The translations under genes were made by a program, and so were the position numbers. Under the pieces are notes generated by a model. The model was not told the origin of the DNA, ran no database searches, and saw only the letters and a list, made by a program, of their open reading frames with translations. From assembly GCA_018694835.1 (NCBI GenBank), contig JABHOG010000033.1, positions 1 through 64,000 of the forward strand: 64,000 bases of DNA, in the 5' to 3' direction. Of the stretch, positions 47,864 to 63,675 are shown piece by piece (the first letter of the stretch is position 1; each line of letters opens with the position of its first letter). This DNA comes from Planctomycetota bacterium. Its GTDB lineage: Bacteria; Planctomycetota; UBA8108; UBA1146.

Positions 47864-48033
47864 TCGGAATCTGCTCGATGGTGGTCCGATATTGATCGGG
47901 GTGATCGGTTGGACCGTCAGCGGTCCGCTTGCCCACCGCTGCGCTGGCTCCTACGATCTACCTGCTGACTTTTTCTCGCTTCGAGATCGATGTCACTCTC
48001 AGTCTTCAAGATTCGGAAGGTGGAACCAGTCTC

Positions 48034-48924
48034 ATGTCCTCACAAGTCTCTGAAGCCGCTCAACAACTGGTCAACTCGGTCGAACGGGTAGCGGTGGTCG
48101 GTGCCGGAACGATGGGCAATGGTATCGCCCAGGTGTTCGCACAGGCGGGTTATACCGTCTTGATCATCGATCCCTTCGAGGGAGCTCTGGATCGAGCACG
48201 TGGAACCATCGAAAACAGTCTTGGCAGGATGGTCAAGAAGGAAAAGATCACCGCTGAAGCGGCGGAGACGATCCTTTCCCGGATCACCTTCGAAGCGGGA
48301 ATCGAAGCCGCTGCCGGTGCCAATTGGGGGATCGAAGCGGTTCCCGAAAGTGAAGAACTGAAGGAAAAGGTGATCTCGGCCCTCGATGCGCAGATCGTAG
48401 ATGGTGGAGTGATCGCATCGAATACATCTTCCATCTCCATCACTCGCCTGGCCAATTACACCGGGCGACCGGAGTCCTTTGTCGGCATGCATTTCATGAA
48501 TCCGGTGCCGATGATGAAGTTGGTCGAGGTGATTCGAGGACATAAGAGTTCCGATACGGTGGTGGAAGCGACACTGGAACTCTCCCGTCGTCTCGGCAAG
48601 GAGCCGTGGGAAGCTCAGGATTACCCTGGATTCGTCGCCAATCGAATCCTCGCACCGATGCTCAACGAGGCGGTCTACGCCTTGATGGAAGGTGTGGCGA
48701 CCCGGGAGGCGATCGACGAGGTGATGAAGCTGGGGATGGGGCATCCGATGGGACCGTTGGCGCTGGCCGATTTCATCGGACTCGATGTTTGTCTCAACAT
48801 CCTCGAACTACTGCAGACTGAACTGGGAGATCCGAAGTACCGTCCCTGCCCATTGCTCCGGAGAATGGTCGCCGCTGGTGATCTGGGGCGAAAGACTGGA
48901 CGCGGATTTTACGATTATTCGTGA
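48034..48924 (+). CDS. 3-hydroxyacyl-CoA (3-hydroxybutyryl-CoA) dehydrogenase
   Basis: ATG 48034 gives 296 residues, the normal single-domain length; an upstream in-frame start at 47929 lacks homology. The NAD site is [13 protein letters not shown] (21-33), followed by the catalytic region [12 protein letters not shown] and [17 protein letters not shown]. The C-terminal dimer domain contains [11 protein letters not shown] and [18 protein letters not shown]. It oxidises 3-hydroxyacyl-CoA in beta-oxidation or reduces acetoacetyl-CoA. It heads the acyl-CoA gene run. Confidence 0.93.
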
Positions 48925-48940
48925 GCGAAAGGTGTGATCG

Positions 48941-50140
48941 ATGCGCGATGACGAGATCTCTGCTGGAATCGATGGAAGCCTGGGGGCCATGCTCGGCACT
49001 ACGCTCTCTCCTGAGCACTCGAAATTGCAGCAAACATGCCGGGAGTTTGCCGAGGAGGTGCTGATTCCTGCGGCTGATCTGCACGATCGGGAGGAATCCT
49101 ATCCGGCCATGAATGTCGATCGGCTGGCGAAGTTAGGAATGATGGGAATCCTCGCCCCTGCCCGCTTCGGCGGCCTCGGCATGGACAATCTCGGACTTTG
49201 CCTGGCACTCGAGGAGATCAATCGTGGATGCGCATCCACAGGGGTCACTCTTTCGGTTCATAACTCACTCCTCTCCAGTCCATTGCTCCACTTCGGAACA
49301 GAAGCACAGCAGGAGAAGTTCTTTCCACGTCTTGCCAGTGGTGAATCGCTAGGTGCCTATGCCATCACAGAACCGGATCATGGATCGGACGCGGTGAGTA
49401 TCGAGACCACCTGTCGTCGCGAGGGAAATGAATGGATCCTCAACGGAACCAAGGCCTGGATCACCAATGGGTCCCACGCCTCGATCATCATCACCTTTGC
49501 CACCATCGATCCCTCGATGCGTTCGCGTGGCATTAATGCCTTCGTGATCGAGAACACCATGCCTGGCTTCTCGGTGGGAAAGAAGGAGAAGAAACTGGGA
49601 ATCCGCGGCTCGGATACGGTGCAACTGGTATTTGACGAGATGAGAGTTCCGGCAGAAAACCTGCTAGGAGAAGAGGGGCAGGGCTTCAAGATTGCCATGC
49701 ATACCCTCGACGGAGGTCGGATCGGAATCGCCACACAGGGAGTCGGAATCGCTCAGGCGTGTCTCGATGCCACCATTTCATTTGCCGAGGGCCATCAGAT
49801 GTTTGGTCGGAAACTGGCGGACAATCAACTCGCCTCACACAAGATTGCCGACATGGCGACCCGCATCGAGGCGGCTCGATTGTTGACGGTCCGTGCCGCA
49901 CTGCTCAAGGATGCAGGTCTACCTCATTCTCGACAGGCTTCGATGGCGAAGTTGAGTGCTTCCGAGATCGCCAACGATGCCGCTCGCATGGCTCTCGAAA
50001 TTCACGGAGGAGCGGGGCTGGGACGACAGAATCCAGTCGAAAGACTCTTTCGCGATGCCAAGATCACCGAAATTTACGAGGGAACCAGCCAGATTCAGCG
50101 CCTGGTCATCGCTCGTCATGTTCGACCGGGCCGGGGGTGA
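48941..50140 (+). CDS. Acyl-CoA dehydrogenase (short-chain/butyryl type)
   Basis: The product has 399 residues and starts 16 bases after the previous stop. FAD- and substrate-site motifs are AYAITEPDHGSDAVSIETTC, WILNGTKAWITNG, KLGIRGSDTVQLVFDEMRVP and FAEGHQMFGRKLADNQL. The catalytic Glu380 sits in the classic IYEGTSQIQRLVIAR. It introduces the alpha,beta double bond into short-chain acyl-CoA, passing electrons to ETF. Neighbours give the next steps of the pathway. Confidence 0.94.
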   Translation: MRDDEISAGIDGSLGAMLGTTLSPEHSKLQQTCREFAEEVLIPAADLHDREESYPAMNVDRLAKLGMMGILAPARFGGLGMDNLGLCLALEEINRGCASTGVTLSVHNSLLSSPLLHFGTEAQQEKFFPRLASGESLGAYAITEPDHGSDAVSIETTCRREGNEWILNGTKAWITNGSHASIIITFATIDPSMRSRGINAFVIENTMPGFSVGKKEKKLGIRGSDTVQLVFDEMRVPAENLLGEEGQGFKIAMHTLDGGRIGIATQGVGIAQACLDATISFAEGHQMFGRKLADNQLASHKIADMATRIEAARLLTVRAALLKDAGLPHSRQASMAKLSASEIANDAARMALEIHGGAGLGRQNPVERLFRDAKITEIYEGTSQIQRLVIARHVRPGRG

Positions 50141-50143
50141 GAG

Positions 50144-51070
50144 TTGGACGACTCTGAAATCAATGATCTGGTCGATGGCATCTCGAGAGGTTCGCGCCGA
50201 GAACTTGCTCGTGCGATCACTGTGGTCGAAGAAGATGAATCGGTCGCGGATGTACTGCTGGCCCGATTACCCGAAACGACATCCGCGTTTCGCCTTGGCT
50301 TGACCGGCGCTCCAGGGGTGGGGAAATCGTCGCTGATCGCTAAACTGGTTCCGCGATTGATCGAAAATGGCGAACGAGTGGCGGTTCTCGCCATCGATCC
50401 GAGTAGCCCCATCACCGGAGGGGCGTTGCTGGGAGATCGGGCACGGATCGACGCTGATCTAGGGGATGAGAGCTGGTTTCGAAGCATGGCTTCCCGGGGA
50501 GCGACCAGTGGAGTGGCGGGTTGCACCGATCTCGCCGCTGAAATACTGGCGCGTGCCGGATTTGGACTGATCCTCATCGAAACGGTCGGAGTCGGGCAAC
50601 TCGAGGTCGAGATCACCGATGAAACTGATCAAGCATGGCTGCTATTGTCACCAGAATCTGGTGACGGAATACAACTCCTCAAGGCGGGCGTGTTGGAGGT
50701 GGTTGACCGGGTGCTGGTGAACAAATGCGATCGGCCAGGGGCGGATGAATTACTTCGCAGGGCTGAAGAGATGGCCCATGACCAGAATGGCCTCGAGCCG
50801 ATGGCCGTCAGCAGTCTCCAGGGAGATGGAATCGACGAGATCGTTGCCGTGATCCTCGAGTCCGCCAGGAAACATCGAGAATCGCCCGACCTCGGTGCCG
50901 TTCGGTCACGTCTGGTGCGTCGGATTCGTCGCAGAGCCGAGCAGGAATGGATCCGGCAAGGCCTCGACCTGGCCGGAGGGTCGAAGGCGATCGAACAACT
51001 CGCAGATCGAGTTTCTCGCCAGGAGATCTCGATTCAGCAGGCCATCAAATCGATCGTGTCAGCCGGTTAA
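50144..51070 (+). CDS. meaB: MeaB/ArgK-family G-protein chaperone of a B12 mutase
   Basis: TTG 50144 follows gggggtgag; 308 residues. Walker A GAPGVGKS (55-62), the family motif VLAIDPSSPITGGALLGDRAR, IETVGVGQ and NKCDRPG are present. MeaB guards and repairs adenosylcobalamin mutases, usually methylmalonyl-CoA mutase. IcmF in this window has its own G domain, and no methylmalonyl-CoA mutase gene is adjacent, so its client probably lies elsewhere. Confidence 0.93.
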   Translation: MDDSEINDLVDGISRGSRRELARAITVVEEDESVADVLLARLPETTSAFRLGLTGAPGVGKSSLIAKLVPRLIENGERVAVLAIDPSSPITGGALLGDRARIDADLGDESWFRSMASRGATSGVAGCTDLAAEILARAGFGLILIETVGVGQLEVEITDETDQAWLLLSPESGDGIQLLKAGVLEVVDRVLVNKCDRPGADELLRRAEEMAHDQNGLEPMAVSSLQGDGIDEIVAVILESARKHRESPDLGAVRSRLVRRIRRRAEQEWIRQGLDLAGGSKAIEQLADRVSRQEISIQQAIKSIVSAG

Positions 51071-51124
51071 GAACAATATCGAGTAGTGGTCCAGGCCCAC
51101 CTGGATAAACGGAAGGTTCATGTC

Positions 51125-52267
51125 GTGATCCGCTTCGAAGAACATCATCAAGAAATTCGGCAGATGATTGCCGATTTCGCCGACAACGAGATCGCTCCAA
51201 AAGCTCAGCACATCGATGAATCCCAGGAGACTCCCACCGATGCCATCGCACAACTGGCAGAGCTGGGGATGCTCGGACTCACCATCGATGAGCAGTTTGG
51301 TGGAGCCGAACTCGATCTCCTTACCGCCTGTTTGGTGGTGGAAGAGATTTCACGCTGTTGTGGTTCGACTGGAGTGGTGGTGGCATCGCACCTGTTCGAG
51401 GGGACCGCGGCGATCAAAAACCTGGCGGATGATGCTGGCCGTGCACGCTGGTTGCCCGATTTGGCCAGCGGTAAGACGATGGCGACCTTTGCTCTGGCGG
51501 AAGTCGAGGCGGAGTCGGATGCATCGGGAATCACCTGTTCGGTCGGGGCGGAACCTGACGGGTTCTCCCTTCATGGCCGGAAAAGCTGGGTGATCGGCGG
51601 GTTGATGGCAAATCTGGTGACCGTGGTGGCCAGAAATGGTGAGGATCAATTGCAGGATCTCGGAGCTTATGTGGTCGATCCCACCTCTGAAGGATGCACG
51701 AGGAAGCCGCTGCGAGATGTTCTTGGCCTGCGTGGATCGGGCTTCTGCGATCTTCATCTCGATGGTGTTCAAATCGAATCGAATTCTGCGCTCTCGGGAG
51801 CGTCATCCGGTTGGCCCGCCATCTCGCGTGTGGTGGAGATGTCTCGTCTCGGTGCGGCATCGGTGATTCTCGGAGTCGCCCGGGGAGCGATCAGCCATGC
51901 GCTCCAATATGCTTCGCAACGAAAAGCGTTCGGCAGGAGTATCGATCGTTTCGGATCGATCCGAGCGATGCTGGCAGAAGCGGCGACCGGCGTCGAGAGT
52001 GCCAGATTATTGCTGTGGCGAGCGGCAGGCCTTTACGACCGTGGGAAATCGGCAACTCGAGAGGGTTCGATGGCAAACCTGGCAGCGAAGCAGGCCTCCT
52101 ATCGAGCGACTCGTGATGCGGTACAGGTGCTGGGGGGGAACGGATACAGTCGTGAGTATCCGGTCGAGCGGGCGTACAGAGATGTTCAGACTGCGGTACC
52201 CTTTGGCGGAGGAGAGGATCTGCAAAAGATCATCGTTTCCCGATCCTTGACAGGAGCTCGTTCATGA
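51125..52267 (+). CDS. Acyl-CoA dehydrogenase-like protein with altered active-site positions
   Basis: GTG 51125, 8 bases after ggaagg, gives 380 residues; GTG 51086 is an earlier option. The fold is clear (ITIDEQFGG-like LTIDEQFGGAELD, FALAEVEAESDASG, GRKSWVIGG, LGLRGSGFCDLHLDGV, YASQRKAFGRSIDRFGSI, QVLGGNGYSREYPVERAYRD). The usual YEGT glutamate position reads PFGGGEDLQ (Gly361). At the alternative helix position used by isovaleryl- and long-chain-type enzymes it reads VEMSRLG (Ser240, with Glu238 two residues earlier). Catalytic base is therefore uncertain. It overlaps the thiolase gene by ATGA. Confidence 0.88.
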   Translation: MIRFEEHHQEIRQMIADFADNEIAPKAQHIDESQETPTDAIAQLAELGMLGLTIDEQFGGAELDLLTACLVVEEISRCCGSTGVVVASHLFEGTAAIKNLADDAGRARWLPDLASGKTMATFALAEVEAESDASGITCSVGAEPDGFSLHGRKSWVIGGLMANLVTVVARNGEDQLQDLGAYVVDPTSEGCTRKPLRDVLGLRGSGFCDLHLDGVQIESNSALSGASSGWPAISRVVEMSRLGAASVILGVARGAISHALQYASQRKAFGRSIDRFGSIRAMLAEAATGVESARLLLWRAAGLYDRGKSATREGSMANLAAKQASYRATRDAVQVLGGNGYSREYPVERAYRDVQTAVPFGGGEDLQKIIVSRSLTGARS

Positions 52268-53448
52268 AAAGTGCCGTGATCTGTTCTGCGGTCCGAACCC
52301 CCATCGGAAAGTTCCTTGGCGGGTTGTCATCTCTTTCTCCGGCAGACCTCGGTGTGGCGGCAGTGGTTCCTGCACTAGAAAGTGCCGGAATCTCCCCGGA
52401 CCGGGTCGACGAATTACGATTTGGTTGCGGTCGCCAGGCGGGCGGAGGCCCCAATGTGGCGCGCCAGATCGCCGTCAGATCGGGGATTCCCGTATCCTCC
52501 ACTGCCGTCACCATCAACATGGCCTGTGGATCTGGATTGCTCTCCATCATCGAGGCTCGCGATGCCATCGAGCGTTCGGATGCTCAGGTGATGGTGGCCG
52601 GAGGGACCGAGAGCATGTCGCAACTTCCCTTCTACCTGCTCGGTGCCCGTAAGGGATATCGCCTCGGTCAGGGTGAAATGGTCGATGGAATGTACCGCGA
52701 TGGTTTTCACTGTCCGATGGCCGATCAACTGATGGGTGCGACTGCGGAAAACCTCGCTGATGAGTTTTCCATCGATCGCCAAGAACAGGACGCTTACGCC
52801 GTCGAGAGTCAGCAGCGTTGCCAGAGGGCCAGGCAAGAGGGTCGTTTTCGCGAGGAGATCGCCGCGGTGGAAATCCCTGGACGAAAGGGTGTGACGGTGG
52901 TGGACACCGATGAGCATCCGCGGGACGGCGCAACCATCGAGGGATTGGCGCGGTTGAAGCCGGTGTTCAAGAGTGGTGGATCGGTCCATGCCGGTAATTC
53001 ATCGGGGATCACCGATGGAGCTTGCGCGCTGGTCATCGCAGATGAAGAACTGGCTCGCAGCGAGGGGTGGCCGATTCTTGCGACTCTCGGAGCATCGGCA
53101 CGTGCTGGAGTCGAGCCGCAGAGAATGGGCATCGGCCCTGTGCCGGCGATTCGCAAGTTGCTGGAAAAGACCGGACAAAAGATCGAGGACTTTGACCTGG
53201 TCGAGTTGAACGAGGCGTTTGCCGCCCAGGTGATCGCCTGCCTCAGAGAACTCCCGATCGATTCTCAACGACTCAATGTCAACGGTGGATCCATCGCACT
53301 CGGTCACCCCATCGGGGCGACCGGGGCCAGGATCACCACCACCTTGTTGCATGAGTTGAGGCGAAGAGGAGGGGGCAAGGGACTCGCGACACTGTGCATC
53401 AGTGGAGGCATGGGCCTGGCACTGGAGATTGATGTTCACGGCAGTTAG
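52264..53448 (+). CDS. Acetyl-CoA acyltransferase (thiolase)
   Basis: The 394-residue product has the thiolase triad: nucleophile Cys88 in INMACGSGL, His in NGGSIALGHPIGATGARI and the late Cys in LCISGGMGLAL. N-terminal AVRTPIGKFLGG and C-terminal VELNEAFAAQ are standard. It cleaves 3-ketoacyl-CoA or condenses two acetyl-CoA. The ATG overlaps the preceding dehydrogenase stop, so both are one transcript. Confidence 0.95.
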   Translation: MKSAVICSAVRTPIGKFLGGLSSLSPADLGVAAVVPALESAGISPDRVDELRFGCGRQAGGGPNVARQIAVRSGIPVSSTAVTINMACGSGLLSIIEARDAIERSDAQVMVAGGTESMSQLPFYLLGARKGYRLGQGEMVDGMYRDGFHCPMADQLMGATAENLADEFSIDRQEQDAYAVESQQRCQRARQEGRFREEIAAVEIPGRKGVTVVDTDEHPRDGATIEGLARLKPVFKSGGSVHAGNSSGITDGACALVIADEELARSEGWPILATLGASARAGVEPQRMGIGPVPAIRKLLEKTGQKIEDFDLVELNEAFAAQVIACLRELPIDSQRLNVNGGSIALGHPIGATGARITTTLLHELRRRGGGKGLATLCISGGMGLALEIDVHGS

Positions 53449-60627: not shown

Positions 60628-60832
60628 TTTTACGACCTTTCCGGCCCGCGGATCCGCTTCAATGGAAGGGGTCTCCATGCTATCTTGCACGCAATCCCGA
60701 AATCCCCAAGGGAATGTTGTTGGATTCGAGTGCCCCGATGGGTCGCAGCGATCCAAGATCGATCCCTGGGTCCAGACAAGTAAGCAGGCACCGGAAGAAC
60801 CCGTGATCACGGTGCCAGTGGAGGAACAGAAG

Positions 60833-62869
60833 ATGAGTTTTAAATTTTCAGTCGGCTTGCGAAAGCAAGGTTGGTTCAAGTGGATCCGCAATCTTCTGGG
60901 TGTTGCGCTGCTGATCTATGCATCCTGTTCCGTCGCGGAAGCCCAGGAGCAGAGACATCTTCAGCACATCCTGGTGGCTACTGAAAAAGTCGCCGATCGC
61001 CTCATCGAGGTGATCGATGAAGGGCGTGATTTCAAGGCTCTGGCGCGCAAATATTCGCTCGATGTGGGGACCAAGATCCTCGGCGGCGACCTCGGCTGGG
61101 TGCACTACGGTGCGATGGAGGCGGAATTCAGCGCCGCGGGCTTCGCCATCGAGAAACCGATGGGGCTGGGTAAGTGCAAGACTCGCTACGGGTGGCACGT
61201 GATCCAGTTCATCGAGACTCGTGGAGAGCCGATCGAAAACCCGCCCAAGCCTCAGCAACGAGATCGGTCTCAGCCAGCGGAGAACCCGGTATCTCCGGTG
61301 CCGGTGGCTGGCGATCGAAATGAAGACCTGGAATGGACCATCGCTTTTTCCAAGAGATCGGTCTTACCAGGAGAGGATGTTGAACTGGTGATCGGAGTCC
61401 GCAACAAGAGTGGAGAAGCGCTGGAGATCTTGGATCCAGTGCTGTGGCCTCTGGGCTTGATCGTTCGCTATCAGTTCGGAAAATTGAATGTCCCGATGGG
61501 CCTGCCCGAGGGATTTGATCCGACAAAGATGGAGATGCGCAAGATCGGGGGCAAGGAGTACCTCGAGAGTAGCTTCCGGCTCAACGATTACGCGGATGTG
61601 TCGGTCCCATGGCCGATCGTGAGAGTGATCTGGCGCGGCGACTCGCTCTTCGGACGGATTGAAAAACATGCTCCGGAAATCATGGGCCAGTCGGACTATG
61701 CGACCTGGAAATCTCGCTGGCGCTTTTACCGTTCCGAAGAGGCGCAGTTCAATCTGCTCCCCGAGGTGAAGCCTGAGGATCGCTGGTTCCTGTGTCTCTT
61801 CTCCAGCGGCAGGATCTGGGTCGAGGTCAAGGATGTTGGAATCCCCGGTCTTCGTCAGGAGATCATCCAGCAGGTGAGAGAGGGGAATCTCAACAATGTC
61901 CCCATTTCACTGACCCAGGGACAGTCGCTCCAGTTCGGAATCTCACCCGGCATGAGCGGTGGAATACCCCGTCCGTTGATCGATCCGTCGGAAAAGTTCC
62001 CGATGGAACTGGGTACATTTTCGGTGATGCCCACCGGAAGCGCAGAAGGTTTGAAACTGGGTCGCAAGTTTTCCATTGGACTGGGTCGATCTCCGGCACT
62101 GGCTGCAAAAGTGATCTCCTGCGGCAAGGTGGTGCTGGAGGAGGGGGAGCCGATCGCTCGAATACAGGAGCGAATCGCCAAGGGACTCGCCGCAGAGTTG
62201 ACCCTTACCCTGGCATATCCCTTCGATCTGTTGCCAGACAAGATCAAGGGTGTATGTGACGACGCTTTTGTCGAGAAGTCTACTGCGGGTTCGGTTGTAC
62301 CTTCGACGACCAATCAGAAGCCTCAGTTCTCCGACAATAAGGGAAAGACACCGCCACGTCCTGCCAGTGCTCCGCTGCCAAGGGTCCTTCTCGACACCAC
62401 TGCCGGTCCATTGCTGGTGGAACTGTTCGAAGACGATTCTCCAAACACGGTGGCAAACTTCATCTCGCTGGTTGGAAATGGCTATTACGATGGTCTCAAA
62501 TTCCACCGTAAGGTGAGCACCACCAAGAGTCGTGGGTTCATCCAGGGTGGAAGTCCTGACGGGACCAGTACTGGGGGGCCGGAGTATTGCATCGCAGATG
62601 AGACCAACAAGAATCGCAAGGCGATCCGCGGAGCTCTCATCATGGCGCGCAAGCACACTGAACCCGATACGGCGGGGTCACAGTTCATCATCGGTCTCGA
62701 TAATCTGGCCTATCTCGATGGAACTTATACCGTTTTCGGCCACGTGGTCGAAGGGGGCGAGGTTCTCGATCGACTGCTAGAAGGCACCGTCATTCGACGG
62801 GCCATCGTCAAGCGCAAGCGAGACCATGAGTACACACCTGCAAAGATCCTCACTGTCGGTGAGAAGTAA
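60833..62869 (+). CDS. Fused parvulin-cyclophilin peptidyl-prolyl isomerase
   Basis: ATG 60833 follows gtggaggaac; 678 residues. A signal peptide (about 20-38, LLGVALLIYASCSVAEA) exports it. Residues 40-130 form a PpiC/parvulin domain (HLQHILVATEKVADRLIEVI, FKALARKYSLDVGTKILGGDLGWV, RYGWHVIQFIE). A Pro-rich linker and a middle beta-rich region without known match (about 160-480) follow. A cyclophilin domain closes the protein (about 510-678: LLDTTAGPLLVELFEDDSPNTVANFISL, KFHRKV, GFIQGGSPDG, GSQFIIGLDNLAYLDGTYTVFG). Both ends catalyse prolyl isomerisation, so it is probably a periplasmic folding factor. Both classes in one chain is rare. Confidence 0.9.
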   Translation: MSFKFSVGLRKQGWFKWIRNLLGVALLIYASCSVAEAQEQRHLQHILVATEKVADRLIEVIDEGRDFKALARKYSLDVGTKILGGDLGWVHYGAMEAEFSAAGFAIEKPMGLGKCKTRYGWHVIQFIETRGEPIENPPKPQQRDRSQPAENPVSPVPVAGDRNEDLEWTIAFSKRSVLPGEDVELVIGVRNKSGEALEILDPVLWPLGLIVRYQFGKLNVPMGLPEGFDPTKMEMRKIGGKEYLESSFRLNDYADVSVPWPIVRVIWRGDSLFGRIEKHAPEIMGQSDYATWKSRWRFYRSEEAQFNLLPEVKPEDRWFLCLFSSGRIWVEVKDVGIPGLRQEIIQQVREGNLNNVPISLTQGQSLQFGISPGMSGGIPRPLIDPSEKFPMELGTFSVMPTGSAEGLKLGRKFSIGLGRSPALAAKVISCGKVVLEEGEPIARIQERIAKGLAAELTLTLAYPFDLLPDKIKGVCDDAFVEKSTAGSVVPSTTNQKPQFSDNKGKTPPRPASAPLPRVLLDTTAGPLLVELFEDDSPNTVANFISLVGNGYYDGLKFHRKVSTTKSRGFIQGGSPDGTSTGGPEYCIADETNKNRKAIRGALIMARKHTEPDTAGSQFIIGLDNLAYLDGTYTVFGHVVEGGEVLDRLLEGTVIRRAIVKRKRDHEYTPAKILTVGEK

Positions 62870-62880
62870 CGGGGTCGTGG

Positions 62881-63675
62881 ATGGAAGAACTGGCTCTTAA
62901 AAACCTACAGATCGACAATCCTGCCGAGGGCGTGCTGAAGGTCACGGTCCATCGGCCGGAGCAATTGAATGCCCTCGATGATGAGACCGTGGCGGAGATT
63001 CATCGTACCTTCGAAGCGATCTCTCGCGATTCTTCGATCCGCGTGGTGATCATCACTGGTGCTGGCCACAAGGCTTTCGTTGCGGGAGCAGACATCCAGC
63101 AACTGGCCCGGCAAGATCATGATCAGGCGTTGAAGCGAGCACTTGCCGGACAGGCTGCGTTCGATTCGGTGGAACGCTGTGGCAAGGTGGTGATCGCACA
63201 GGTCAACGGATTTGCTCTGGGTGGCGGCTGTGAACTGGCTCTCGCATGTCACCTTAGATACGCCTCCAGTCGAGCCAAGTTGGGTCTGCCAGAAGTGACG
63301 CTGGGGATCATCCCAGGGTACGGCGGAACCCAGCGATTGCAGCGCATCGTCGGTCGTGGAAGAGCTCTCCAGATGATCCTCACCGGGGACTTCGTCACCG
63401 CAGAGGCTGCGTTCGAGATGGGACTCATCAATGGAGTAGAGCCACCAGAACATCTGGAAGAGAAGGTGATGGAAATCGCCGCCACCCTTTGCAAGCGTGG
63501 TCCGGTCGCCTTGAAACTCGCCATCGATGCAGTACTTCGTGGAGGCGATGAATCACAGCAACAAGGAATGACGATAGAAGCCGAACTTTTTGCTCGGATC
63601 AGTGAAACTGAAGATATGCGAGAAGGGATGAGTGCCTTTCTCGAGAAAAGACCCCCGGAGTTTCGGGGCCAGTAG
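62881..63675 (+). CDS. Enoyl-CoA hydratase/isomerase family
   Basis: The product has 264 residues and starts 11 bases after the previous stop. The crotonase fold is clear: VHRPEQLNALDDETV, oxyanion hole AFVAGADIQQL and VNGFALGGGCELALACHLRYAS, and the catalytic Glu in LGLPEVTLGIIPGYGGTQRL. It hydrates trans-2-enoyl-CoA to 3-hydroxyacyl-CoA. It complements the dehydrogenases and thiolase encoded upstream and the thiolase that follows. Confidence 0.94.
   Translation: MEELALKNLQIDNPAEGVLKVTVHRPEQLNALDDETVAEIHRTFEAISRDSSIRVVIITGAGHKAFVAGADIQQLARQDHDQALKRALAGQAAFDSVERCGKVVIAQVNGFALGGGCELALACHLRYASSRAKLGLPEVTLGIIPGYGGTQRLQRIVGRGRALQMILTGDFVTAEAAFEMGLINGVEPPEHLEEKVMEIAATLCKRGPVALKLAIDAVLRGGDESQQQGMTIEAELFARISETEDMREGMSAFLEKRPPEFRGQ

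Follow-up and report, generated by a model that had tools for sequence, protein, structure and literature searches.

Sequence profiles point to a decayed second cyclophilin within a predicted exported parvulin-cyclophilin fusion of one planctomycete class

Near the end of the window, by which we mean the whole 64,000-nucleotide stretch of DNA analysed here, lies a gene whose product begins with a parvulin and ends with a cyclophilin (Table 1). The signal-peptide-like N-terminus of this protein fits export. The gene's neighbours are an EamA transporter gene and, downstream, an enoyl-CoA hydratase gene, with thiolase-like genes in relatives, and this setting is conserved across the window's family. 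Elsewhere in the class, some families have acyl-CoA dehydrogenase and MeaB genes close to the isomerase gene. The window itself carries acyl-CoA dehydrogenase, MeaB and 3-hydroxyacyl-CoA dehydrogenase genes at 48001-53445, homologues of which stand beside the isomerase gene at three loci from other class families (L069, L070 and L074). We considered a functional link to the adjoining acyl-CoA genes and rejected it, as nothing supports it and the neighbours differ between family and class; the adjacency of the enoyl-CoA hydratase gene is probably without functional meaning.

Table 1. Features of the parvulin-cyclophilin locus, with positions in the window.
Feature	Position	Strand	Details and basis
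Ribosome-binding site GGAGGA	60820..60825	+	Shortly 5' of the ATG at 60833; read directly from the sequence
Parvulin-cyclophilin gene	60833-62869	+	Single intact ORF, 678 aa, no internal stop (translation)
Signal peptide, residues 1-37, probable cut between AEA and Q	60833..60943	+	Translation; hydrophobic N-terminus judged by eye
Parvulin head, residues 40-129; H45, D77, F99, T117, H122	60950..61219	+	PF13616 E 4.7e-16, PF00639 E 3.4e-11; residues conserved
Proline-rich linker, residues 130-160	61220..61312	+	Alignment
Conserved domain without known fold, residues 161-310, perhaps beta-rich	61313..61762	+	Family versus class profiles, E 7.6e-17
Predicted decayed (pseudo-) cyclophilin, residues 312-460, without Arg55 or Gln63	61766..62212	+	hhalign, ranking, PF00160 in class orthologues
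Variable linker, residues 461-518	62213..62386	+	Alignment
C-terminal cyclophilin head, residues 519-655; R559 (Arg55) and Q571 (Gln63) kept	62387..62797	+	PF00160 E 1.9e-33; site table
Enoyl-CoA hydratase gene	62881..63675	+	11 bases past the stop; PF00378 E 4.1e-67; neighbour conserved in family

Pfam recognises the two ends of the window protein as Rotamase_3 (PF13616, residues 40-129) and Pro_isomerase (PF00160, residues 519-655) and finds no match in residues 130-518. Together with the translation of the reading frame, these matches bear out the initial annotation of two unrelated isomerase folds at opposite ends of one predicted-exported protein; the stretch between them, which it put at some 320 residues, is about 390 residues long. 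An assembly artefact can be ruled out because 23 separate ORFs carry both heads in one frame, 14 of them from the family (the window's own included) and nine from the rest of the class. In some of the translated rows, the first codon was read as Met by the software. Judged from the alignment, most class families other than the window's have a far longer linker after the parvulin.

The parvulin head exceeds the curated Pfam cut-offs for both PF13616 (59.8 bits, cut-off 22.5) and PF00639 (44.4 bits, cut-off 21.7). We take the parvulin active-site set to be a His/His pair, an Asp or Cys and a hydrophobic pocket, with positions as numbered in Pin1; D77 was paired by eye with Cys113 of Pin1, one residue out of register, and this pairing is hence approximate. 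H45, D77 and H122 are kept in all 14 family rows and in 9/9 class rows, the count being nine and not ten because L050 begins at a contig start and lacks its N-terminus. Pairwise dN/dS of the parvulin is 0.00-0.10 over six pairs, the lowest among the four folded domains in five of them; for the signal peptide, the one value of 2.26 comes from 38 codons with a dS of 0.04, and for the last head one pair was saturated and gave no value. The best solved relatives of the parvulin head are PrsA foldases (PDB sequences, E 1.4e-12), which likens it to the PrsA-type extracytoplasmic parvulins. Unlike these, the window protein is fused to cyclophilins, and its similarity to named isomerases in NCBIfam stays below cut-off throughout, for PrsA by a wide margin (51.3 bits versus 361).

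The proteins from the rest of the class are collinear with the window protein and have, in their middle, a second recognisable cyclophilin. PF00160 is found there in 10/10 class proteins from other families: six that were scanned whole have two PF00160 stretches each (among them L050, L042, L045, L046, L047 and L040), and the middles of the remaining four match at E 5e-14 to 8e-13. Within the window's family, PF00160 is absent from the middle of the window protein, of six relatives and of two more proteins scanned whole, each checked singly.

That the middle of the window protein might be unrelated to cyclophilins, with the profile similarity an artefact of aligning it with class relatives, seems to us extremely improbable. 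A family-only profile (14 sequences, residues 312-460), from an alignment made without class rows, matches 17 independent planctomycete cyclophilins, a set with duplicate loci for any given gene removed, with an hhalign E of 1.1e-5 and a score of 39.0. The highest score among column-shuffled controls of this profile is 21.1 and none of 200 reaches 39.0, and neither of two control profiles, one of residues 160-312 (E 0.59) and one of the parvulin (E 0.27), matches the same cyclophilins. When 920 ORFs were ranked by hhalign, ranks 1-11 were all cyclophilins, and the remaining nine of the 20 cyclophilins present fell at 15, 26, 36, 38, 54, 123, 171, 510 and 646; the other 900 entries were decoys sampled from 1071 mechanical ORFs, many of which are not real genes. 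An hmmsearch with the middle profile likewise gave cyclophilins for all of the best 15 of 1091 ORFs. The family-only profile matches the class middles at E 4e-10, and the order and length of the family's middle agree with those of the class members whose middle Pfam recognises. Against solved cyclophilins, the whole-middle profile (19 sequences) gives a best E of 1.6e-14 over profile positions 166-305. On the other side, a HMMER search of PDB sequences with the family-only profile was not significant, as cyclophilins (E 0.16-0.65) came below a designed repeat protein (E 0.051). The structure models also speak for the artefact: AlphaFold2, run with four rows (the window protein and L036-L038), gave a mean pLDDT of 29.9 for the full protein and 31.1 for residues 305-480, so that the predicted cyclophilin fold of this segment rests on sequence profiles.

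Based on these profiles, we identify residues 312-460 as a decayed second cyclophilin that lies below Pfam's reach in the window's family. As predicted, the chain has three isomerase-type heads: a parvulin, a decayed cyclophilin and a cyclophilin. The earlier view of the middle as belonging to no recognisable family gives way for these ~150 residues and stands for residues 161-310, which are still matchless. This latter domain is homologous between family and class by profile-profile comparison (Table 1), and it has neither a PDB-sequence match nor a Pfam match above cut-off. An Ig-like identity for it was considered and rejected, the hints being sub-threshold (Arrestin_C and DUF11, with S-arrestin at E 0.49).

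Site residues of the cyclophilins are numbered as in human cyclophilin A, of which we take Phe113, Trp121 and His126 to be site positions. Arg55 and Gln63 are both absent from the middle head in the window's row of the domain alignment. Among the class middle heads, the position aligned with Trp121 is Trp in 7/10 and that aligned with His126 is His in 9/10, and an Arg near position 55 is found only in L045. Identity of the middle head to that of the window ranges from 27 to 94% within the family. With a pairwise dN/dS of 0.04-0.39 (six pairs), compared with 0.00-0.10 for the parvulin, the middle head is constrained by purifying selection, as a rule more weakly than the parvulin. Middle heads sit on long branches in the cyclophilin-domain tree, which neither supports nor opposes an origin of the two cyclophilins by within-gene duplication.

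The C-terminal head is a clear cyclophilin by Pfam (PF00160, 116.4 bits, cut-off 21.7) and by comparison with PDB sequences (best E 2.5e-21). Both Arg55 (R559) and Gln63 (Q571) are present in 14/14 family rows; in the rest of the class, Arg55 is found in one of ten rows and Gln63 in three. The Phe113, Trp121 and His126 positions are substituted in the window's head, by Ile, Tyr and Tyr respectively, and the Phe60 position is uncertain owing to an insertion. AquaCyp300 is an active cyclophilin, of lower activity, in which only three of nine site residues, namely Arg55, Phe60 and Gln63, are retained (PMC4898713), which makes activity of the window's last head plausible by analogy. The dual-headed enzyme that the initial annotation envisaged is plausible for the window's family and one other class sequence only, and not for the rest of the class, given the loss of Arg55 there. 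It had also named poor active-site conservation in both heads as the observation that would speak against it; such poor conservation is seen in the cyclophilin outside the family, and the parvulin is unaffected. One class member, L045:855-3134, has a last head with the classical FHR...FVIQGG motif and a middle cyclophilin that still has its Arg near position 55; its protein may be the nearest to the ancestral state.

Looked for in other planctomycetes, as had been suggested, the architecture proves to belong to one class: a full-range match to the middle alignment occurs in 25 of the 29 class genomes searched, which are of very different sizes, and in none of the 363 other phylum genomes (392 were searched in all). 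The latter gave ordinary cyclophilins only, which for the most part aligned with the profile's cyclophilin half. One of the 25 positives, G014, is truncated where its contig ends, and the copies of G014 and G025 are each split over two contigs. The four class genomes without a match are G005 (82% complete), G016 (79%), G019 (84%) and G027 (62%); G016 has a parvulin fragment that ends at a contig edge and is 55% identical to the window's. A BLAST search covering 24 of 30 planctomycete genomes from outside the class (all except G032, G036, G038, G042, G048 and G055) returned no listed ORF with both heads, the reach of BLAST for parvulins being limited. Three near relatives are public MAGs; two of them carry the label Planctomycetota and the third is labelled Bacillota. 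In the last of these (L038), the gene is 71% identical and the gene order is that of the planctomycete relatives, and the genome is probably mislabelled.

Because the window's genome also encodes a second cyclophilin fusion, an FKBP that looks exported and a pair of stand-alone cyclophilins, the window protein is not its only isomerase, and we rejected the idea that it is the only one of the envelope. The stand-alone cyclophilins are tandem ORFs of 262 and 242 aa (L001, contig C138), an arrangement also seen in other planctomycete genomes, for example on contig C69 of G050. The second fusion (L004:40-1932, contig C78) has what appear by eye to be HEAT-like repeats followed by a terminal cyclophilin. 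The FKBP gene (L083:194-877, contig C43) lies directly upstream of a PpiD-like gene (L083:1070-2953) whose parvulin part is barely detectable. The genome also encodes an Omp85-type protein and three proteins with SurA-type N-terminal matches. One of these, a 357-aa SurA-like protein (L082:776-1849, contig C74), exceeds the cut-off of Rotamase_2 by 2 bits, falls short of that of PF00639 and has Gln for the first active-site His, and the other two lie below every parvulin cut-off. A protein similar to the degraded SurA-like one is found in G006 (L085:625-1737). The present gene is the sole PF00639 match in 13 of 16 family genomes; of the other three, G005 has one match outside the isomerase gene and G007 and G009 have three each. 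In the 13 class genomes outside the family, the count is two to seven. An unqualified claim that the window protein is the sole parvulin is weakened by these SurA- and PpiD-like proteins with degraded parvulin domains. Since the parvulin domains of such chaperones are degraded in this genome, the window protein may supply isomerase activity that these have lost.

Multi-domain isomerases are already known, and the layout seen here combines familiar parts in a new way. Dual-family immunophilins, in the accessible portions of their descriptions, combine a cyclophilin and an FKBP in one chain and so share with the window protein the joining of two unrelated isomerase families by linkers (PMC5852385, PMC6316441). 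They differ in that the window protein pairs its cyclophilin with a parvulin and has no FKBP domain by Pfam, looks exported, and adds a predicted decayed cyclophilin and a conserved domain between the heads. In its available text, PMC6316441 names parvulins only to set them aside. SurA and PpiD are exported and have parvulin domains, resembling the window protein with its predicted export and its parvulin head, and their chaperone function resides in regions without isomerase activity (PMC2956729); in contrast to them, the window protein has no SurA_N match in Pfam, and SurA-/PpiD-like proteins are encoded separately in the same genome. AquaCyps, too, are cyclophilins from bacteria that have sizeable additional regions and an active site in which some residues are replaced; they differ in being described from marine Alphaproteobacteria and in having one isomerase domain and no parvulin (PMC4898713). 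By title or abstract, the literature searched, which lacks most subscription papers, contained no paper on a parvulin-cyclophilin fusion, let alone on one that has a decayed head as its third.

Parvulins and cyclophilins are prolyl isomerases. We propose, as a reasonably probable reading of the sequence and of its analogues, that the window protein is an exported multi-domain prolyl isomerase/chaperone with a catalytic parvulin, an assisting last cyclophilin, and a pseudo-isomerase and a 161-310 domain that serve clients. After export, it would act outside the inner membrane, probably in protein folding. The parvulin head would carry out prolyl isomerisation and, in the window's family, the C-terminal cyclophilin, of low activity or narrow specificity, would assist it. 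Residues 312-460 and 161-310 may serve as spacers, or may hold or orient unfolded clients in such a way that the heads would act on one chain. Heads that bind rather than catalyse have precedent, since the chaperone module of E. coli SurA suffices for its known role without PPIase activity, according to the part of the report available (PMC2956729). A point against the foldase reading is that the adjoining genes belong to acyl-CoA metabolism and not to envelope folding. A more speculative, and unlikely, extension is that envelope parvulin activity moved from decayed SurA/PpiD-like chaperones into a separate three-headed foldase, in which the middle cyclophilin, once an enzyme, would have become a module that holds clients next to the active heads.

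It is also conceivable, if somewhat unlikely, that the parvulin is a catalyst with passive passengers, both cyclophilins and the 161-310 domain being spacers or assembly modules. The low dN/dS of the parvulin relative to the other folded domains, the long Pro-rich linkers of the class proteins and the near absence of Arg55 from the last head outside the family all point this way; against it stand the retention of Arg55 and Gln63 in every family row and the activity of AquaCyp300 on so reduced a site, as described in the accessible text (PMC4898713). We give still less credence to a client-specific assembly factor, in which the heads would serve mainly for recognition of one or a few exported partners. 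Such a role would suit the restriction to one class, and a middle head as divergent as that of the family fits a lineage-specific partner. Presence in most class genomes, whatever their size, and a fully conserved parvulin site fit a general role instead, and no linked candidate partner gene was found. We retain the multi-domain isomerase/chaperone as our working proposal.

These analyses identify half of a stretch that was blank in annotation, in a poorly studied bacterial class. Within this one class, the parvulin is intact throughout, Arg55 of the last head survives in some families and is gone from most, and the key residues of the middle head have been lost almost everywhere, the window's family included. 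The protein thus offers a naturally occurring case in which to study the role of isomerase folds after catalysis ends.
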